Shown here: positions 13,699 to 34,945 of the stretch, one piece after another | How the letters are laid out: every line of letters starts with the position of its first letter | How positions within the stretch are numbered: position 1 is the stretch's first letter | NCBI RefSeq assembly: GCF_031598375.1 | Contig: NZ_CP123872.1 | Coordinates: 2,166,501-2,230,500, forward strand | Direction of reading: 5' to 3' | Length of the DNA: 64,000 nt | Source of the DNA: Temperatibacter marinus | GTDB lineage: Bacteria > Pseudomonadota > Alphaproteobacteria > Sphingomonadales > Kordiimonadaceae | The notes under the pieces: model-generated | What the model was told of the DNA's origin: nothing | The model's input: only the letters and a program-made list of their open reading frames with translations | The model's database searches: none | Made by a program: the position numbers and the translations under genes

Positions 13699-13735
13699 CT
13701 AAAAAAGTGAATCTCTTCTCTTGTGTTATGAGAAT

Positions 13736-13754
13736 TATGTTACTATATAACATA
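13736..13754. promoter_or_regulatory. Zur-box-like palindrome before the MerC/ABC operon
   Basis: tatgtta-N5-taacata, a perfect 7-bp inverted repeat. It matches the TGTTA...TAACA core of Zur operators known in Proteobacteria (consensus roughly GTTATA-TATAAC). It lies 17 bases before the MerC start, where a bound repressor would block the promoter. A zur gene is present at 34475-34945. Confidence 0.7.
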
Positions 13755-13770
13755 AAAATGGAGGTGAGAG

Positions 13771-14157
13771 ATGATTACAATATCCAAGAATAAAGGCCCA
13801 TTTTTTGATAAAGTAGGTATTCTAGTTTCTACGGTTTGTCTTCTTCATTGCATGATTGTACCTCTTCTTTATCTTATCTTTCCTTTCGCACTTTTTCCTT
13901 TTCTTAGCAGTGAATGGGTTCATCTTACGCTTGCATCCCTAGCGGTTCCCATAGCAATAGCCGCGATGAAAATGGGATATTCTAAGCATGGATCTAAACG
14001 CCCTCTGTACATTGTTCTTTTGGGTATGCTAATGCTGTGGGGGGCACTGTTAGCTCATGATTCACCCTGGCTGGAAACGATAGTTGCTGTGATTGGAGCA
14101 GCAAGCATAGCAATGGCTCATCACCTCAATCACACTTTGATGGGAAAACCGAGATGA
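13771..14157 (+). CDS. MerC-domain membrane protein
   Basis: A 128-residue protein with four predicted membrane helices and the MerC family Cys pair in helix 1 (VCLLHC, residues about 23-28). MerC was first described as a mercuric-ion transporter; most genomic copies are not in mer operons and some lie in zinc-responsive loci. Here it overlaps the next ABC ATPase gene by 4 bases (ATGA) and follows a Zur-box-like palindrome, so a role in zinc movement across the inner membrane is inferred. A GAGGTGAGAG ribosome site precedes the ATG. Confidence 0.8.
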   Translation: MITISKNKGPFFDKVGILVSTVCLLHCMIVPLLYLIFPFALFPFLSSEWVHLTLASLAVPIAIAAMKMGYSKHGSKRPLYIVLLGMLMLWGALLAHDSPWLETIVAVIGAASIAMAHHLNHTLMGKPR

Positions 14158-14858
14158 CTTCAACTGAAATCAAGAGATCTGTTGAAACTGCTGCGCCACT
14201 CATAGAGGTGAGTAATTTAAAGCATGCCTTTCAGGAACAGGTTGTCTTAGATATTCCCCGTTGGCAGATAGAAGATGGTCAGCATAGTTTAATCCTTGGC
14301 CCTTCGGGCAGTGGTAAAACAACCTTACTTTCCATCCTAACGGGTTTATTAAAACAATCTGAAGGGATCGTGACTGTTTTAGGGGAAACTCTAGCGCATA
14401 TCCCCTCTCGTCAAAAAGATCGTTTTAGAGCTCAGCATTTCGGGGTCGTGTTTCAAGATAATCATCTTATATCCAGCTTAACAGTTCGTGAGAATATAGA
14501 AATCACTCAGCAAATTACAGGCGGAAAAGCTGATTGGGAGTGGGCTAAGCATTTACTAAATGAGTTGGGTATTTTCAGCAAAGTGTCTAAGAAACCAAAT
14601 GCACTTAGTCGCGGTGAAGCTCAACGTGTTGCTCTTGTTTGTGCTGCTATGTCACGTCCTCAGATATTGATAGCAGATGAACCAACGTCAGCTTTGGATG
14701 ATCATAATACCGAGAAAGTTATTGGCTTATTCAACAAATTAGCCCGAGAAGTGAATTCAACGTTATTGATTGCCACTCACGATCAAAGATTAAAAAGATT
14801 ATACGATCATCAATTGTCTCTGAACCTTCTTCACACTGAAAAGGGAGAAGTATCGTGA
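14154..14858 (+). CDS. ABC transporter ATPase, MacB/LolD-like
   Basis: A 234-residue ATPase: Walker A GPSGSGKTT near residue 45, Q-loop VVFQDNH, signature in the variant form LSRGEAQRV, Walker B ILIADEPTSALDD, and switch His in ATHDQR. It clusters by sequence with the MacB/LolD group that pairs with FtsX-like permeases, not with importers. Overlaps MerC (4 bases) and the permease gene (4 bases), giving strict coupling. The order ABC ATPase-MacB-like permease-DUF3299 is the same as the Zur-controlled PA4064-PA4066 genes of Pseudomonas aeruginosa, which are induced in zinc starvation. Confidence 0.88.
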   Translation: MTSTEIKRSVETAAPLIEVSNLKHAFQEQVVLDIPRWQIEDGQHSLILGPSGSGKTTLLSILTGLLKQSEGIVTVLGETLAHIPSRQKDRFRAQHFGVVFQDNHLISSLTVRENIEITQQITGGKADWEWAKHLLNELGIFSKVSKKPNALSRGEAQRVALVCAAMSRPQILIADEPTSALDDHNTEKVIGLFNKLAREVNSTLLIATHDQRLKRLYDHQLSLNLLHTEKGEVS

Positions 14859-16147
14859 ACATAATGGTCTTTAAATTAGCTTGGGCAACCATAAAACATA
14901 AGCCGCTTTCTAATTTGTTAACAGTGTTCACTCTTGCGATTGCTGTGGCCCTCATTTCTATATTATTACAATTTAGTGGACATATGGATCAACGCTTGCA
15001 AAAGGACTTTGCTCGAATTGATATGGTTGTAGGGGCGAAGGGCAGTCCAATGCAGATCGTCCTATCCAGTGTTATGCATGTGGATATACCGACGGGCAAT
15101 ATTCCTCTATCTGAAGTGAAGATGATCCGTTCACATCGGTTTGTAGAATCCGCAGTGCCGATTGCTTTGGGGGATAGTTATGCAGGCTATCGACTTGTGG
15201 GCTCTAGTCTCGACTTTTTCAAACTTTATGATGTAGACTATGCGGCAGGATCCCATTGGAATAAGTCTCATCAGGTTGTCATCGGCGCGGAAACTGCCCG
15301 CGTACTTGACCTTCAACTAGGAAGCAAATTTGAAAGCGCGCACGGTGTTACAGACGGCGGGGCGTCCCATGACCATGTTGACTATGAGGTCGTCGGAATT
15401 CTAAAACCAACAGGCAGCATTGTTGACCGATTACTTCTGACTTCAATTGAAAGTATCTGGCTTGCTCATGGTCAAAACACTCATGCTTCTAGCGACCATG
15501 AAGAAAGCCAAACTCAAGGGCATAATGACGACAGGGACCAGCATCATCATGATGAAAACCATTCTGCTGAATTTGATATTTGGTCTGTAGAGGCTAAAGA
15601 CAAAGAAGTTACAGCGCTACTCCTTCAATATCGCTCGCCTGTTGCGGCGATTACCTTACCACAAGTTATTAATAAGCGGCCTGGACTGCAGGCAGCGATA
15701 CCATCTTTTGAAATTGCCCGTCTTTACAATTTATTATCTGGATTTTTCCAAGTTGCAGAATTAATAGGCCTCATCTTGATCCTTATTGGAGGTCTCAGTA
15801 TTTTTACAACACTCAGTCAAACATCGTCACAGAAAATGTATGATATAGCTTTGCTCCGCGCTCGTGGAATGAAAGCATCCTGGGTCTTTATACAGCTTCT
15901 CCTTGAAGGAATAATCCTTGCTTTCTTTAGTGTTTTTATAGGCATTGGGTTGGGTCATCTAGCTACCTTTGCTGCTTTCTATTCTTTTGAAGCCTTTCAA
16001 AATGTTAATATGGATGGCACCACTTTTTATCTTTCAGAAGTGCAGCTCATCGTGGTAACCTTTGCAATTGCTATCGTTGCGGTTCTATGGCCTGCAGTCA
16101 AAGGGTTTAGAGTTGATCCGCAAATTCTTCTTAAGAACGGGAAATAA
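14855..16147 (+). CDS. MacB/FtsX-like ABC permease with His-rich loop
   Basis: A 430-residue permease: helix 1 near residues 15-40, a large extracytoplasmic domain, then three C-terminal helices (about 290-320, 345-375, 395-415) as in MacB/FtsX mechanotransmission permeases. The periplasmic domain carries an unusual His/Asp/Glu insertion at about residues 205-235 (HGQNTHASSDHEES, then HNDDRDQHHHDENH) and an earlier SHDHVDYE. Such clusters bind zinc in other proteins. Together with the Zur-like operator this suggests a zinc-related function. GTG start overlapping the ATPase stop by 4 bases. It is the PA4065-type member of the operon. Confidence 0.87.
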   Translation: MNIMVFKLAWATIKHKPLSNLLTVFTLAIAVALISILLQFSGHMDQRLQKDFARIDMVVGAKGSPMQIVLSSVMHVDIPTGNIPLSEVKMIRSHRFVESAVPIALGDSYAGYRLVGSSLDFFKLYDVDYAAGSHWNKSHQVVIGAETARVLDLQLGSKFESAHGVTDGGASHDHVDYEVVGILKPTGSIVDRLLLTSIESIWLAHGQNTHASSDHEESQTQGHNDDRDQHHHDENHSAEFDIWSVEAKDKEVTALLLQYRSPVAAITLPQVINKRPGLQAAIPSFEIARLYNLLSGFFQVAELIGLILILIGGLSIFTTLSQTSSQKMYDIALLRARGMKASWVFIQLLLEGIILAFFSVFIGIGLGHLATFAAFYSFEAFQNVNMDGTTFYLSEVQLIVVTFAIAIVAVLWPAVKGFRVDPQILLKNGK

Positions 16148-16148
16148 C

Positions 16149-16679
16149 ATGTTTCAGACTGGCCGAAATATAAAACTTTTGGGGCTCATTGCCATTCTAA
16201 TTATGACGTATCCAGTATTTACGGTGGCTAACGCTCAAGACTTCCTTTCTACAGATGAAGAGGGGATTGAAACAGTCTGGAAGCCAGCGGAAGCCATTGA
16301 AGGGTCTATTCCGTGGCATGTCTTTTTAGGTGTGCCATATGAAGAGCAATTGATGAATGACATCCCGATAGCTGTTCCCAAATTCACTCCATCTATCATG
16401 GCCCTAGTAGGGCAAAGGATTAAGGTGAATGGTTATATGGTTCCATTGGAGCCTAGTGACAAGCAAGGACATTTTCTCTTGATGGCTTATACACATTCAT
16501 GCCCATTCCATATGACGGGAGGACCAAATGGTTATATTGAAGTCTATGCTGATTTTCCTGTAACTGTTACTTTTGCCCCTATTTTGATTGAAGGAGTTCT
16601 TACGCTTGAGAAAGACTTTACAAGAGGGGTTTTCTTTAAATTAACGGCATCGCAGCAGGTTGCTAAAAAGAAGAAATAG
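16149..16679 (+). CDS. DUF3299 exported protein
   Basis: A 176-residue protein with a signal peptide (cleavage near ANA-QD, residues 29-30) and a DUF3299 domain: GQRIKVNGYMVPLE, then the FLLMAYTHSCPFHMT segment, whose Cys plus His residues may bind metal. DUF3299 proteins are periplasmic, of unknown activity, and are the last gene of the zinc-starvation operon PA4063-PA4066 in P. aeruginosa. The ATG at 16149 lies right after the permease stop; a start at 16062 inside the permease was rejected because the signal peptide begins here. A lysine-rich tail ends the protein. Confidence 0.82.
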   Translation: MFQTGRNIKLLGLIAILIMTYPVFTVANAQDFLSTDEEGIETVWKPAEAIEGSIPWHVFLGVPYEEQLMNDIPIAVPKFTPSIMALVGQRIKVNGYMVPLEPSDKQGHFLLMAYTHSCPFHMTGGPNGYIEVYADFPVTVTFAPILIEGVLTLEKDFTRGVFFKLTASQQVAKKKK

Positions 16680-16701: not shown

Positions 16702-17748
16702 CTACTGTGAGTCAGTGGCAAAAGCTGAATACTCTCGTTTATTTAGGGCAAAGTAGATAGATTGTCCTTCTTGAAAGCTGTCTTTGCTCGTTGGGACATA
16801 AGTGAATAGGCGAAGATCATTGTAAAGTATTTCTAATTTGTAGCGGTCTCCCTGGAAGTGTGCAGAGAGTATCTGTGCCTCACATTCCTTCACACCTAAA
16901 ATGATATCTTCAGGCCTGATATGGACGGCAATAGATTCATCCTTTTTAAATCTTGATGAAATTTTTATCACGCCCAGACTGGTCTGTGCTGTATTTTCAG
17001 TCAGGACCTTGCCCGCAATCCAGTGCCCTTCTCCAATAAAAGAGGCCACTTCTTGAGACATTGGCTGATGATATAACGCTGTCGCTGTATCCCATTGACA
17101 TAACCTTCCTTGATCAAAGACACCAATTTTATCTGCCATGGCAAATGCTTCTTGTTGATCATGGGTAACAAGAATTGCGGACATCTTATTCTTTTTTAGA
17201 ACAGACCTGATATTCTGAGCCAGATCACTCCTAAGAGTACTATCAAGACTAGAAAAAGGTTCATCGAGGAGCAGAAGGGTTGGATTTGGTGCCATCGCTC
17301 TTGCTAGGGCCACACGCTGTTGTTGCCCGCCAGATATTTGATGTGGGTATCTATTTTTTTCCGCAACGAGGTCGACAAGGTCCAAAAGGGCTTGAACTTT
17401 CTCCTCAACGACTTTTCGTTTAACGCCTGCAAGGCCAAATGCGATGTTTTCTGAAACTGTCATATGGGGAAAGAGAGCGAAATCTTGAAAGACCATCCCA
17501 ATTTTTCGGTCTTCGGCTTTGACAAAGGTCTGCTCATTAGCAAGCGGTAGGCCTTTGAGGAGAATTTCTCCTGCAGAGGGTTTTTCAAAGCCTGAGATTA
17601 GGCGTAAGAGGCTGGTCTTACCGCAGCCGCTGGGGCCAAGAAAACAGCCTATCTCACCTGGCATGAGAGAAAAGGAAACATCCTTCACAGCTTTGAGATC
17701 ACCGTAATTTAAAGAAAGTGTCTCAAGAGAGAGGAGGGTGTTAGTCAT
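16702..17748 (-). CDS. fbpC: Ferric-iron ABC transporter ATPase
   Basis: A 348-residue ATPase of the CysA/FbpC/PotA type: Walker A GPSGCGKTS near residue 35, signature SGGQQQRVALARA, Walker B LLLLDEPFSSLD, switch His in VTHDQQEA, and a C-terminal TOBE-like domain with HIRPEDI. It overlaps the permease gene by 8 bases and is the last gene of fbpA-fbpB-fbpC read leftward. ATG at 17748 preferred over 17781, since the protein then begins at the family N-terminus (MTNTLLSLETLSLNYG). Confidence 0.88.
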   Translation of the reverse strand: MTNTLLSLETLSLNYGDLKAVKDVSFSLMPGEIGCFLGPSGCGKTSLLRLISGFEKPSAGEILLKGLPLANEQTFVKAEDRKIGMVFQDFALFPHMTVSENIAFGLAGVKRKVVEEKVQALLDLVDLVAEKNRYPHQISGGQQQRVALARAMAPNPTLLLLDEPFSSLDSTLRSDLAQNIRSVLKKNKMSAILVTHDQQEAFAMADKIGVFDQGRLCQWDTATALYHQPMSQEVASFIGEGHWIAGKVLTENTAQTSLGVIKISSRFKKDESIAVHIRPEDIILGVKECEAQILSAHFQGDRYKLEILYNDLRLFTYVPTSKDSFQEGQSIYFALNKREYSAFATDSQ

Positions 17749-19423
17749 TATCTTTGACCTTTCTGGTCTTGGAAATTGCACGGCTGAGAAGGATTACTGG
17801 AATAATACCAGTTGCCACAATCATTAAAGCAGCAGGGGCTGCTTGTGCTAATTTTTCATCACTAGCGAGCTCATAGGCTCGAACAGCTAGAGTGTTGAAA
17901 TTGAAGGGCCTTAAAATTAGTGTGGCTGGCAGTTCTTTCATCACATCGACAAAAACAATAAGGCCCGCGGTCAAGATGCTGCCTTTCATCATTGGTAAGT
18001 GAACCTTAGTAAGGATGGCCGGAGATCTGTGGCCAAGGGAGGTTGCAGCTTCATCTAATGATGTTTTGATCCGGATTAATCCAGACTCTATAGACCCAAA
18101 TCCAGCGGCCATGAAACGAACTGTATAAGCAAAGACCAAAGCAAAAATGGTACCGCTGAAAATTAAGCCTGTTGATATATCAAAGGTGTCCCGCATAAAG
18201 CGATCAAAAGAATTCTCGACTGTGGTGAAGGTAACCATGACGCCAACAGCAATCACAGTCCCGGGAACGGCATAGCCCATTGTCGAAAGTTTGACGATAA
18301 GCTTTGAAAGGCGGTTCTTATTGTGACGATTGATATAGCCAAAATACAAAGACAGCAGGATACAGGCTAATGCGGCGAGCATACCAAGTTGTAAGCTGTT
18401 CCAAGCTAAGCGCCAAAAAGCAGCATCATAAGAAACATCGGCCTGAAAAATCGCCCAATACAGCAATTGGCAGGCAGGAATTATAAAGCCAAAAACTAGA
18501 GGGCAGCTACAAATGAGCAAAGCAAGAGAGGCTTTAACCCCCCTGAGCTTGATGGGGCCTAGATCTTGGTGCCTCTGGCTTGTGGCATGATACTGTGCGC
18601 CTTTGCGGGATTTGGTTTCCACCCAAAAAAGTATGAGAATGAAGAGCAGCAGAAGTGTGGCCAGTTGCGCTGCTGCTGATAGGCTGTCTAATCCGTACCA
18701 AGTCCTGAAAATACCTGTGGTGAATGTATCAACCCCGAAATATTGTACGGTACCGTAATCAGCAAGAGTTTCCATAAGAACAAGAGCAAGTCCAACGAAA
18801 ATTGCTGGCCGGGCAAGTGGCAGTGCAATTCGCCAGAAACTGCTATACATAGTGTGCCCCAGTGACCGTGAAACGTCTAAGACGCAGATCGATTGGCTTA
18901 GGAATGATGCCCGTGCAGTCATATAAATATAGGGGTATAGAACCAGAGATAACATGATGATTGCCCCCCCGAGGGATCTAATCTCCGGAAAATAATAGGC
19001 CCCATAGCCGAGGCCTGTCATCTCTCTAATGGCTGTTTGTACGGGACCCGCAAAATCTAACAATCCAGTATAGGTATAGGCAATAATATAGGCTGGCATG
19101 GCAATTGGTAATAAGAGGGCCCATTCAAAAAGACGTTTGAGAGGGAAGTCGCACATGGAGACAAACCAAGCAGCAGAGACACCAAGAAGAAGCGAGCCAA
19201 ACCCTACGCCGATCATCAGCAGTAAAGAATTTGAAACATAGGTCCATAAGACGGTTTCTACCAAATGTGAAAAGACGGTATCACTCGGTGAAAAAATATA
19301 ACTGGTGATTACAAGCGTAGGGCTAATAAGGATCAAAGCAATAAAGCACCCTAAAAGCAGTGTTTTATTCTCTGTTAGCATTCTTACGAGTGCACTATCT
19401 TGTTTCTTTTGAAGGTCAGCCAT
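17741..19423 (-). CDS. fbpB: Ferric-iron ABC transporter permease (fused, two-domain)
   Basis: About 560 residues, roughly twelve membrane helices in two homologous BPD_transp halves; EAA-like loops (SRSLGHTMYSSFWRIALPLARPA and DEAATSLGHRSPAILTKVHLP) contact the ATPase. This is the FbpB/FutB permease form for Fe3+. The start is uncertain: ATG at 19438 lies only 5 bases after a strong hairpin (19443-19474), so the second ATG at 19423 was chosen. Overlaps fbpC by 8 bases. Confidence 0.85.
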   Translation of the reverse strand: MADLQKKQDSALVRMLTENKTLLLGCFIALILISPTLVITSYIFSPSDTVFSHLVETVLWTYVSNSLLLMIGVGFGSLLLGVSAAWFVSMCDFPLKRLFEWALLLPIAMPAYIIAYTYTGLLDFAGPVQTAIREMTGLGYGAYYFPEIRSLGGAIIMLSLVLYPYIYMTARASFLSQSICVLDVSRSLGHTMYSSFWRIALPLARPAIFVGLALVLMETLADYGTVQYFGVDTFTTGIFRTWYGLDSLSAAAQLATLLLLFILILFWVETKSRKGAQYHATSQRHQDLGPIKLRGVKASLALLICSCPLVFGFIIPACQLLYWAIFQADVSYDAAFWRLAWNSLQLGMLAALACILLSLYFGYINRHNKNRLSKLIVKLSTMGYAVPGTVIAVGVMVTFTTVENSFDRFMRDTFDISTGLIFSGTIFALVFAYTVRFMAAGFGSIESGLIRIKTSLDEAATSLGHRSPAILTKVHLPMMKGSILTAGLIVFVDVMKELPATLILRPFNFNTLAVRAYELASDEKLAQAAPAALMIVATGIIPVILLSRAISKTRKVKDND

Positions 19424-19442
19424 GCTGCTTCTTACCATAAAT

Positions 19443-19474
19443 AAAAAGGCTCAAAAACTAATTTGAGCCTTTTT
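19443..19474 (-). terminator. Hairpin between fbpA and fbpB, attenuating terminator
   Basis: A 13-bp perfect stem (aaaaaggctcaaa / tttgagccttttt), loop aactaa, giving an RNA hairpin with U-runs in both directions. It sits 20 bp after the fbpA stop and before fbpB, so it should let only part of transcription reach the permease and ATPase genes, keeping binding protein in excess. Confidence 0.8.
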
Positions 19475-19494
19475 TCAATTTCTAGGTTTTTATG

Positions 19495-20520
19495 CTATTT
19501 CCAGCCTGCTTTGTCCAGAGCGATCACAGCGTTCCGGTTACCTTCACCCAGCTTTGAAAGGTTGATGGAATCGGCCTTGAAGGACCCCCATGATTTAAGA
19601 AGATCGCTTGGTTCAACGTCCTTACGTACTGAAAATTCGCCATTCACATCACCGTAAAAGATTTGTGCTTCTTTGCTAGAGAGAAATTCGATCAATTTTA
19701 CGGCATTATCTTTATTCTTCGATGCCTTTGTTACAGCAATTCCTGAAACGTTCACGTGGGTGCCGCGGTTCATCTGGTTAGGCCAAAAGACGGCCACTTT
19801 TTGTGCGGCTGCCACTTGTGTTGCATCTGAAGACCTAAGCATACCAGCAAGATAGTAGGTATTGGCAACAGCAATGTCACATTGGCCAGCGGCAGCTGCT
19901 TTTATTTGGTCTCGGTCTCCGCCTCGTGGAGGTTTTGCAAAATTTGAAACCATGCCTTCAGCCCATTCTACTGTTTTATCCATGCCATTAGTTGCCAGAA
20001 TGCTGGCCACAAGAGATTGATTATAAATATTACTGCTTGAGCGGATACAAATTTTGCCTTTCCATTTCGGATTAGCAAGGTCTTCATAGGTACTAAGCTC
20101 AGACGGATTAACTTTGCCTTTTACATACATGATTGGACGTGCACGTAAACTAAGACCAACCCATTGCATGTCTATATCACGGTATTGTGCAGGGATCGCC
20201 ATTTCAACCTTCTTGGAGACGAGTGTTTGGGTTACGCCGGCTTCCTTAGCACGGTGTAGGCGACCAGCGTCAGTGGTGATCAAAATATCTGCTGGTGAAT
20301 TACGGCCTTCTTGTTGCAATCTTTTTAGAAGAGCATCCGCAGACCCAGAAACAAGATTAACTTTAATTCCCGTCTTTTTCTGAAAAGTTTCAAGAAGAGG
20401 CTTAATCAATTGTTCTTTACGTGCTGAATAGATGTTGACTTCTTCGTCAGCGACAGCTGTATAGCCAAAGCCTGAAAGTGCAAGTGAAGAGGCCAAAATA
20501 CCTTTGATCATGGTTTTCAT
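19495..20520 (-). CDS. fbpA: Fe3+ ABC transporter substrate-binding protein
   Basis: A 341-residue periplasmic binding protein with signal peptide (cleavage near AVA-DE, residues 24-25). Iron-site tyrosines fit the FbpA/FutA type: YSARKE near residue 31 and the twin-Tyr motif NTYYLAG at about 220. Other family segments: AKPPRGGDRDQIKAAAAGQCD and KAGWK at the end. First gene of fbpABC; a palindromic leader lies upstream (see 20547-20598). Family members are often iron-repressed by Fur or RirA/Irr. Confidence 0.9.
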   Translation of the reverse strand: MKTMIKGILASSLALSGFGYTAVADEEVNIYSARKEQLIKPLLETFQKKTGIKVNLVSGSADALLKRLQQEGRNSPADILITTDAGRLHRAKEAGVTQTLVSKKVEMAIPAQYRDIDMQWVGLSLRARPIMYVKGKVNPSELSTYEDLANPKWKGKICIRSSSNIYNQSLVASILATNGMDKTVEWAEGMVSNFAKPPRGGDRDQIKAAAAGQCDIAVANTYYLAGMLRSSDATQVAAAQKVAVFWPNQMNRGTHVNVSGIAVTKASKNKDNAVKLIEFLSSKEAQIFYGDVNGEFSVRKDVEPSDLLKSWGSFKADSINLSKLGEGNRNAVIALDKAGWK

Positions 20521-34474: not shown

Positions 34475-34945
34475 ATGCCACATGACCCTTCTCATGATCA
34501 CGATCATTGTATCGAAGCTGCCCTTAAAGAAGCCGAGCGACTTTGTGCCGAAAAAGGGTTGCGATTCACCCCTATTCGACGTGAGATACTCAAAATGATC
34601 TGGTCCAATCATAAAGCAGTTAAAGCCTATGATCTTTTGGATCGAATTGCGACTGAATCTCCAGTAGGATCTGCTAAGCCTCCTACAGTCTACAGAGCCC
34701 TAGATTTCCTTATGAACGAAGGCTTTGTCCATAAAATTGAAAGCTTGAATGCTTATATAGGATGTCCCCATCCAGGGACTAATCACCTCAGTCAATTTTT
34801 GATATGTGATGCTTGCAGCGACGTTGTTGAAGTTAATATTTCGGCCATTGAGGAAAATATTAAGATTGTATCAAATGACAACGGCTTTCAAGTGCGAGGT
34901 CAAACCATTGAAGTGCATGGACTATGTCGTGATTGCTCTGGCTAA
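34475..34945 (+). CDS. zur: Zinc uptake regulator
   Basis: A 156-residue Fur-family protein. Winged helix with LRFTPIRREIL and KPPTVYRALDFLMNEGFVHKI, then a dimerisation domain with two CxxC pairs (CDAC at 111-114 and CRDC at 151-154) for structural zinc. The His/Asp-rich N-terminus (HDHDH) and GCPHPGTNHLSQFLICD are typical of Zur rather than Fur. It represses zinc-uptake genes when zinc is plentiful. A matching palindrome lies in front of the MerC/ABC operon at 13736. Adjacent hybrid kinase gene follows by 17 bases, likely incidental. Confidence 0.9.
   Translation: MPHDPSHDHDHCIEAALKEAERLCAEKGLRFTPIRREILKMIWSNHKAVKAYDLLDRIATESPVGSAKPPTVYRALDFLMNEGFVHKIESLNAYIGCPHPGTNHLSQFLICDACSDVVEVNISAIEENIKIVSNDNGFQVRGQTIEVHGLCRDCSG

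Follow-up and report, generated by a model that had tools for sequence, protein, structure and literature searches.

A probable Zur-repressed zinc-starvation operon of Temperatibacter marinus encoding a ZrgA-less and ZnuA-less sister of the ZrgBC machine

Introduction

Zinc uptake is usually described as the work of ZnuABC and ZIP proteins, joined in a few gammaproteobacteria by ZrgABC. In Vibrio, Zur-controlled Zrg operons have been established experimentally, and both zinc acquisition by ZrgABC and its need for ZrgA have been demonstrated (PMC9817125, PMC9820375). PA4063-PA4066 is reported to be the most expressed zinc ATP-binding cassette (ABC) system of Pseudomonas aeruginosa at low zinc (PMC10393844), which agrees with the zinc-starvation induction attributed to it in a preliminary description of the DNA studied here. 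That DNA is a stretch of 64,000 nucleotides (the window) from the genome of Temperatibacter marinus (contig NZ_CP123872.1, positions 2,166,501 to 2,230,500), and within it we examined an operon of four genes, encoding a MerC-family protein, an ABC ATPase, a MacB/FtsX-type permease and a DUF3299 protein, which is preceded by a palindrome resembling a Zur box. We conclude that this is very probably a zinc-starvation operon repressed by Zur, with a type VII ABC machine that has neither ZrgA nor ZnuA and is sister to the ZrgBC core. New are this ZrgA-less, ZnuA-less branch and MerC as a probable protein of the Zur regulon.

Like ZrgABCDE of Vibrio and PA4063-PA4066, the operon combines an ATPase, a MacB-like permease and a DUF3299 protein under a Zur-type box, and the kinship with this machinery that had been proposed from the sequence is upheld. 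It differs from both in having no ZrgA, in starting with MerC, and in carrying a His-rich loop in the permease rather than in ZrgA. LolCDE, MacB and HrtBA, which are type VII ABC systems, export or extract; the window permease shares their fold in prediction, and is unlike them in its metal-type residues and zinc-regulon context. The operon is also unlike the tripartite MacB exporter, since its ATPase gene is separate and no MacA is found among its genes. The Zur regulon of Caulobacter (znuGHI, znuK, znuL, znuM and zrpW), which includes TonB receptors, uses the same type of operator; however, its znuGHI is termed ABC-2 type, not MacB-type, and the sections of the source that describe the regulon name no MerC (PMC4176598).

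The candidate operator and its recurrence

A perfect dyad, TTATGTTA-N5-TAACATAA, with arms of 8 bases around the spacer CTATA and 21 bases in all, lies 15 bases before the MerC ATG at 13771; a GGAGGT Shine-Dalgarno sequence begins between them at 13760. The palindrome reported earlier at 13736-13754 proved to be the inner 7-base version of this dyad, perfect as claimed, but it stands 16 and not 17 bases from MerC. The site scores 21.2 bits, of a maximum of 24.2, with a position weight matrix (PWM), and shares 15 of 19 bases with the Zur-bound zrpW operator of Caulobacter (PMC4176598, Table 1). Taken by itself, the window does not lift the site above chance: ATGTTATANTATAACAT with up to three mismatches occurred in at least one copy in 30 of 100 shuffles, and TGTTA-N5-TAACA with at most one mismatch was seen twice where 2.03 occurrences were expected.

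Across the genome of 3,184,799 bases, RTGTTAYNNNRTAACAY is found perfect at two places (reversed control, none) and with one mismatch at four more. Three of these six best places lie directly upstream of zinc-uptake genes. The first is the MerC operon. The second is a ZnuD-like TonB receptor, with a one-mismatch box 43 bases upstream; its protein scores 336.8 bits with the NCBIfam ZnuD model, below the cut-off of 950, and matches ZnuD in the PDB (4rdr) with an E value of 3e-44. The third is a ZIP-like transporter gene (G000:C1:1563544-1564734; L019 7045-8235), with a one-mismatch box 24 bases before its GTG start. The ZIP-like protein, which ends in SHDHSH, is the only PF02535 match in the genome, at 30.8 bits and thus below the cut-off of 35.1; because the gene was found by a family search after the list of sites existed, its box is a real test. 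Two of the remaining places are one within a coding frame and one without a clear target. The preliminary description had proposed a search for the same site before other zinc genes, naming znuA and cobW. ZnuA has no match in this genome and cobW a single marginal one (21.2 bits, cut-off 20.7), so that the two genes named are missing or doubtful here. The site does recur before the receptor and the ZIP-like gene, however, and the proposal that absence of such recurrence would refute the reading is thus answered in favour of a Zur-box-like dyad. In 29 genomes of the family, RTGTTAYNNNRTAACAY was found perfect nine times, against once when reversed.

The genes of the operon are closely coupled, as had been noted, with 4-base overlaps at 14154/14157 and 14855/14858 and a 1-base gap at 16147/16149. 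The permease scores 43.9 bits with MacB_PCD and 41.6 with FtsX in Pfam. The DUF3299 protein has a signal-peptide-like N terminus, judged by eye, and a SCPFH motif whose Cys is invariant across 20 aligned rows; its match to PDB 4hsp reaches an E value of only 0.008. The zur gene announced in the window is likewise supported as Zur-type: its product scores 144 bits with the NCBIfam Zur model, short of the cut-off of 167 and about 100 bits ahead of the best Fur model (46.5). Its closest solved relatives by sequence are 7dh7, for which the deposited name is simply Fur-family regulator, and the Zur protein of E. coli (4mtd), and it is one of two FUR-family matches in the genome. Coordinates are collected in Table 1.

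Table 1. Coordinates, within the window, of the operon, its candidate operator and the regulator gene
Feature	Coordinates	Strand	Basis
Zur-box-like perfect dyad, candidate operator	13735..13755	.	sequence, Caulobacter likeness, PWM
MerC-family membrane protein, 128 aa	13771..14157	+	Pfam PF03203, 88 bits (cut-off 27.6); alignment of 18 MerC proteins
ABC ATPase, LolD/MacB/ZrgC-like	14154..14858	+	Pfam PF00005 (ABC_tran), 112.6 bits
MacB/FtsX-type permease, group B of ZrgB superfamily	14855..16147	+	Pfam, AlphaFold2, Foldseek, tree
Permease His163 codon, candidate zinc ligand	15341..15343	+	invariant, 63/63 permeases
Permease His172 codon, candidate zinc ligand	15368..15370	+	invariant, 63/63 permeases
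Permease His205 codon, candidate zinc ligand	15467..15469	+	invariant, 63/63 permeases
His/Asp/Glu-rich periplasmic loop, His205 to Thr253	15470..15610	+	47 residues: 7 His, 13 Asp/Glu
DUF3299 (ZrgE/PA4066-like) protein	16149..16679	+	Pfam PF11736, 28.5 bits, cut-off 22 (weak); alignment
Zur-type FUR-family regulator, ~18 kb downstream of operon	34475..34945	+	Pfam FUR 48.5 bits; NCBIfam; PDB

Two types of operon

The DUF3299 model matched 50 of 385 genomes of the class and 10 of 59 nearer genomes, with the window's genome counted in both. We divided the operons into two groups at a permease score of 200 bits, a division that was set after DUF2796 had been observed beside group A. In group A operons ZrgA (DUF2796) stands ahead of the ATPase; in group B operons, the window's included, no ZrgA was seen and the permease has a motif resembling VVGAKGSPLQL. 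PF11736 under-calls group B, as in G244, where Pfam is negative and phmmer detects a DUF3299-like gene (77 bits). In a tree of 63 permeases, which holds no Vibrio or Pseudomonas sequences, the two groups split with support of 100/100, so that the window permease falls in a clade separate from the ZrgA-partnered ones.

We searched whole genomes for ZrgA and ZnuA. Of group A, in which 13 genomes have a mapped permease, 10 were covered, without G286, G422 and G001; of group B the searches covered 22, without G322 and G241, which belong to the genus of G008, and without G067, G144, G243 and G367, in which no ATPase was mapped. ZrgA was found in all 10 of group A as opposed to none of the 22 of group B, nor in the genome of the window. 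No ZnuA (PF01297) match was obtained in T. marinus by a search that was positive in 11 of 14 control genomes. Half of the 22 searched in group B (11) lacked ZnuA, including all seven searched from the window's family, and these seven match neither ZnuA nor ZrgA. The operon resembles ZnuABC in having an ABC ATPase in a presumably Zur-controlled zinc acquisition, and differs from it in the lack of a ZnuA match; the fold of the ZnuB permease is also different from that of the window permease. Two relatives, L088 (2322-5728) and L089 (2315-5962), have a ZnuA gene immediately 5' of a group B ATPase-permease-DUF3299 series, and in L088 zur and znuCB-looking ABC and permease genes diverge from one strong box.

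Since ZrgA is missing and the permease lies in its own clade, the operon cannot be filed under ZrgABCDE and is treated here as a sister variant that would work like it. The preliminary description had called it the alphaproteobacterial version of PA4063-PA4066, a label that does not hold: alphaproteobacteria also carry the ZrgA type, and 65 of the named permease relatives considered here, which are the best 80 of 588, belong to Bacteroidota.

Boxes in the relatives were scored with a matrix built solely from published sites, four of Caulobacter and one of Vibrio. We counted boxes scoring 10 bits or more in the 1.1 kb that precede the ATPase, derived the expectation from the other parts of these loci, and excluded four same-genus near-copies (L069, L081, L092, L084) as well as loci that did not have both ATPase and permease matches. 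Among 18 group B loci, 7 had such a box against an expectation of 1.48; among 13 group A loci, 5 did against 0.54. L116, the closest of the best 80 relatives at 47% identity, has the order MerC-ATPase-permease, and in it a box of 16.4 bits stands 46 bases upstream of MerC. Zur-like genes adjoin the operon in L071, L080, L081, L083, L088 and L092, of which L080, L081 and L092 represent one genus. In L228 (994-9218), from the taxonomic order to which the window's genome belongs, a complete and contiguous zinc island reads TonB receptor, DUF1826, MerC, Zur-like protein, ATPase, permease, DUF3299 and TonB receptor, and the first receptor has a box of 9.9 bits at its start; its Zur-like and DUF3299-like genes are phmmer calls (43 and 77 bits) unconfirmed by Pfam.

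The permease

The AlphaFold2 model of the permease has a mean predicted local distance difference test score of 90.4, with low confidence at loop residues 218-235, and Foldseek matched it to LolCDE, MacB, HrtBA, YbbAP and FtsX. Three periplasmic histidines, His163, His172 and His205, are candidate zinc ligands. The alignment in which they are invariant consists of chosen rows with clean frames, 53 from group B and 10 from group A, so that the alphaproteobacterial ZrgA-type permeases share them.

The His/Asp-rich loop that had been pointed out in the permease was confirmed, at residues ~206-240. Counted between His205 and Thr253, relatives have up to 25 loop histidines, and 9 of the 10 group A rows have none. 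Together with the three-histidine site, this sequence pattern suggests that the permease itself gathers zinc where a binding protein is absent. We also considered the His-rich loop as a strict marker of a missing binding protein and did not retain it; in that capacity it is suggestive at most, with a cut-off chosen post hoc.

MerC

The MerC protein of the window has a CxxHC motif near its N terminus and AHxxNH near its C terminus, and CxxHC and AHxxN-like motifs are common to most of the 18 aligned MerC proteins. It shares the Pfam family PF03203 with MerC of mercury operons and is unlike it in its zinc-regulon context and perhaps in these motifs, which come from the alignment of those 18 proteins. 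PF03203 matches are present in 38 of the 385 genomes of the class, 24 of them above the cut-off, and 30 loci were mapped of the 45 matches listed. We defined a zinc-type neighbour as a Zur/FUR gene, CobW, DUF1826, ZrgA, DUF3299, ZnuA, or a receptor resembling the ZnuD-like one. By this definition, and without a random-gene control, 12 of the 23 other above-cut-off MerC loci have a zinc-type neighbour (two on the receptor alone and one, L228, on a longer stretch), and six of the 23 have a box of at least 9 bits inside the locus. Ten of the best 80 permease relatives have a MerC of more than 25 bits in their flanks, seven of them together with CobW, Zur or ZnuD-like genes.

A protein search with the window MerC over 72,556 plasmids returned nine records, of which we inspected seven regions (H7 and H8 left out). 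MerC is preceded by a box of 23.8 bits at 21 bases in Pseudoalteromonas, of 23.5 bits at 60 bases in Catenovulum, of 18.3 bits at 18 bases in Sphingomonas parapaucimobilis, and of 14.8 bits at about 50 bases in Novosphingobium; among the other inspected regions there is one 8.1-bit box, and two have no box before MerC. Zur-type boxes that belong to MerC itself occur in several alpha- and gammaproteobacteria.

The preliminary description took MerC to stand in place of the DUF2796 protein. This was abandoned: MerC lies inside or adjacent to ZrgA-bearing clusters in L073, L098, L100 and L204, and 70 of the best 80 permease relatives show no MerC above 25 bits in their flanks. These clusters and the genome searches rule out MerC as a positional substitute for DUF2796. 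Because MerC accompanies ZrgA clusters, it is better seen as an added protein of the zinc regulon than as a replacement of ZrgA. The small protein encoded 5' of the ATPase in L087 appeared MerC-like at first look; Pfam does not call it MerC. We found no paper tying MerC to Zur in a literature search of PubMed Central under open licences.

Other observations at the loci

Downstream of the operon and convergent with it, the minus strand at 16702-20520 encodes an ATPase, a permease and a binding protein resembling an iron(III) ABC importer, as judged by eye and by Pfam classes. Autoregulation of Zur through the same box was considered and dropped, there being no box of that type near 34475. A role in anti-phage defence was likewise set aside, since PADLOC gave no match for MerC, the permease or the DUF3299 protein.

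In a family member, a site at L115 1501-1517 (G386:C3:555243) exactly matches the 17 central bases of the box in the window, and no recognisable zinc gene follows it. A gene for a 107-aa protein precedes the ATPase in L082 and L084 and is the first after the box; the L082 copy has no Pfam match, and L084 has, in addition, a CobW gene that carries a separate box. PhoX alkaline phosphatase genes are found immediately in front of the zinc operon or close to it in L072 (1837-3213), L071 (1650-3047), L065 (1573-2952) and L128 (4931-6388); three of these genomes belong to the window's family and one to Bacteroidota. The genes were called by Pfam in L072 and L128 and by phmmer in L071 and L065 (744 and 632 bits). 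In Catenovulum (L236) an alkaline phosphatase D lies there. PhoX is not known to use zinc, and Zur may switch phosphatases so as to spare it; our literature search found no paper that places PhoX under Zur.

Discussion

The zinc/Zur reading of the operon is well supported by sequence comparison. According to it, zinc-loaded Zur would occupy the dyad and block transcription, and the operon would be expressed when zinc is scarce. The ATPase and the permease would form a type VII ABC machine with the LolCDE/MacB fold, a sister of the ZrgBC core of ZrgABCDE and distinct from it. This machine would have no ZrgA or ZnuA partner, and the periplasmic domain of its permease may collect zinc by the His-rich loop and the three-histidine site. 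The secreted DUF3299 protein would serve as a periplasmic helper, and MerC would be an inner-membrane protein of the zinc regulon, perhaps the path of zinc across the inner membrane or a helper in its passage. Zinc would enter through the outer membrane by way of the ZnuD-like receptor encoded elsewhere in the genome.

Several observations weigh against this reading. With up to two mismatches, RTGTTAYNNNRTAACAY shows no genome-wide excess (74 places, and 95 for the reversed control), and a simple promoter scan calls no promoter at the dyad. The second perfect site of the genome (G000:C1:1706386-1706402; L018 9387) is flanked on one side by a POT transporter gene and on the other by a pair of amidohydrolase genes with secreted-looking products, the first of which begins 133 bases downstream; we know of no role of this pair in zinc starvation. 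Seven perfect sites in other genomes of the family are not upstream of recognisable zinc-uptake genes, except one before a TonB receptor, and the 1.1-kb stretch contains no box of at least 10 bits at 11 of the 18 loci of group B and at 8 of the 13 of group A. To our knowledge there is no importer among the top 50 fold matches of the permease. The loop has no histidine in 6 of the 53 group B rows, of which two have ZnuA in the operon and four have none seen there; at least seven histidines per 30 residues occur in only 18 of 78 of the best 80 relatives, most loops being short or His-poor. Of the ZnuA-less genomes in group B, 10 of 11 have a His-rich loop, as opposed to 4 of 10 among those that hold ZnuA (Fisher one-sided p 0.02), a comparison for which the cut-off was picked after the data were seen, in which the genomes are not independent, and where G435 has no permease on its contig; G369 is ZnuA-less and has no His-rich loop.

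Of the alternatives, the one that survives best accepts control by Zur and holds that the ABC machine is no importer, and that it extrudes or extracts a lipoprotein, a metallophore or a peptide and so aids zinc supply indirectly. This is possible, if somewhat unlikely. The top folds, LolCDE, MacB and the heme exporter HrtBA, speak for it, and the published excerpts on Vibrio report zinc-dependent growth, not the direction of transport (PMC9817125, PMC9820375). However, the three invariant histidines and the His-rich loop fit metal binding, LolF, weakly aligned in that part (7.3 bits), has no His at the first two of the three positions, and the operon has neither a MacA-type partner nor an outer-membrane channel.

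It is very unlikely that the dyad belongs to another regulator, such as Fur or one of the ArsR or LysR type, or is a chance palindrome. Such sites do arise by chance in the window, iron-transporter-like genes are adjacent, and one perfect copy precedes amidohydrolases; against this stand the resemblance to the Zur-bound Caulobacter site (PMC4176598), the similar sites before the ZnuD-like and ZIP-like genes, and the recurrence of the box upstream of MerC in other genera and classes. Mercury-operon MerC is common on plasmids. A toxic-metal system, in which MerC would act in uptake or tolerance of mercury or cadmium, is more improbable still: the Pfam family name suggests it, the MerC of Tolypothrix adjoins an ArsR/SmtB regulator and a metal P-type ATPase, and two reviews, in their portions on MerC, treat it solely as a mercury transporter (PMC12193353, PMC12191737), but the annotated neighbours of the operon include no merR, merA, merT or merP (a genome-wide search was not made), MerC stands in many genomes alongside Zur, CobW, DUF1826, ZrgA or Zur-type boxes, and the plasmid search brought up so few records.

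The Zur-repressed zinc-starvation operon that we favour has a bolder form, which we offer tentatively and consider unlikely: a zinc ABC importer that does without a solute-binding protein, by virtue of its loop and three-histidine site, with MerC as a general protein of the Zur regulon that moves zinc, or hands it, across the inner membrane. If this were true, type VII ABC machines would include importers. The annotation "MerC" would be wrong about the metal in many genomes, and many MerC genes would move from mercury resistance to zinc starvation. The branch without ZrgA and ZnuA would provide a test of the need of ABC import for a binding protein. Being a large sister branch that spans alphaproteobacteria and Bacteroidota, it would help to explain how zinc is supplied in genomes that have neither ZnuA nor ZrgA.

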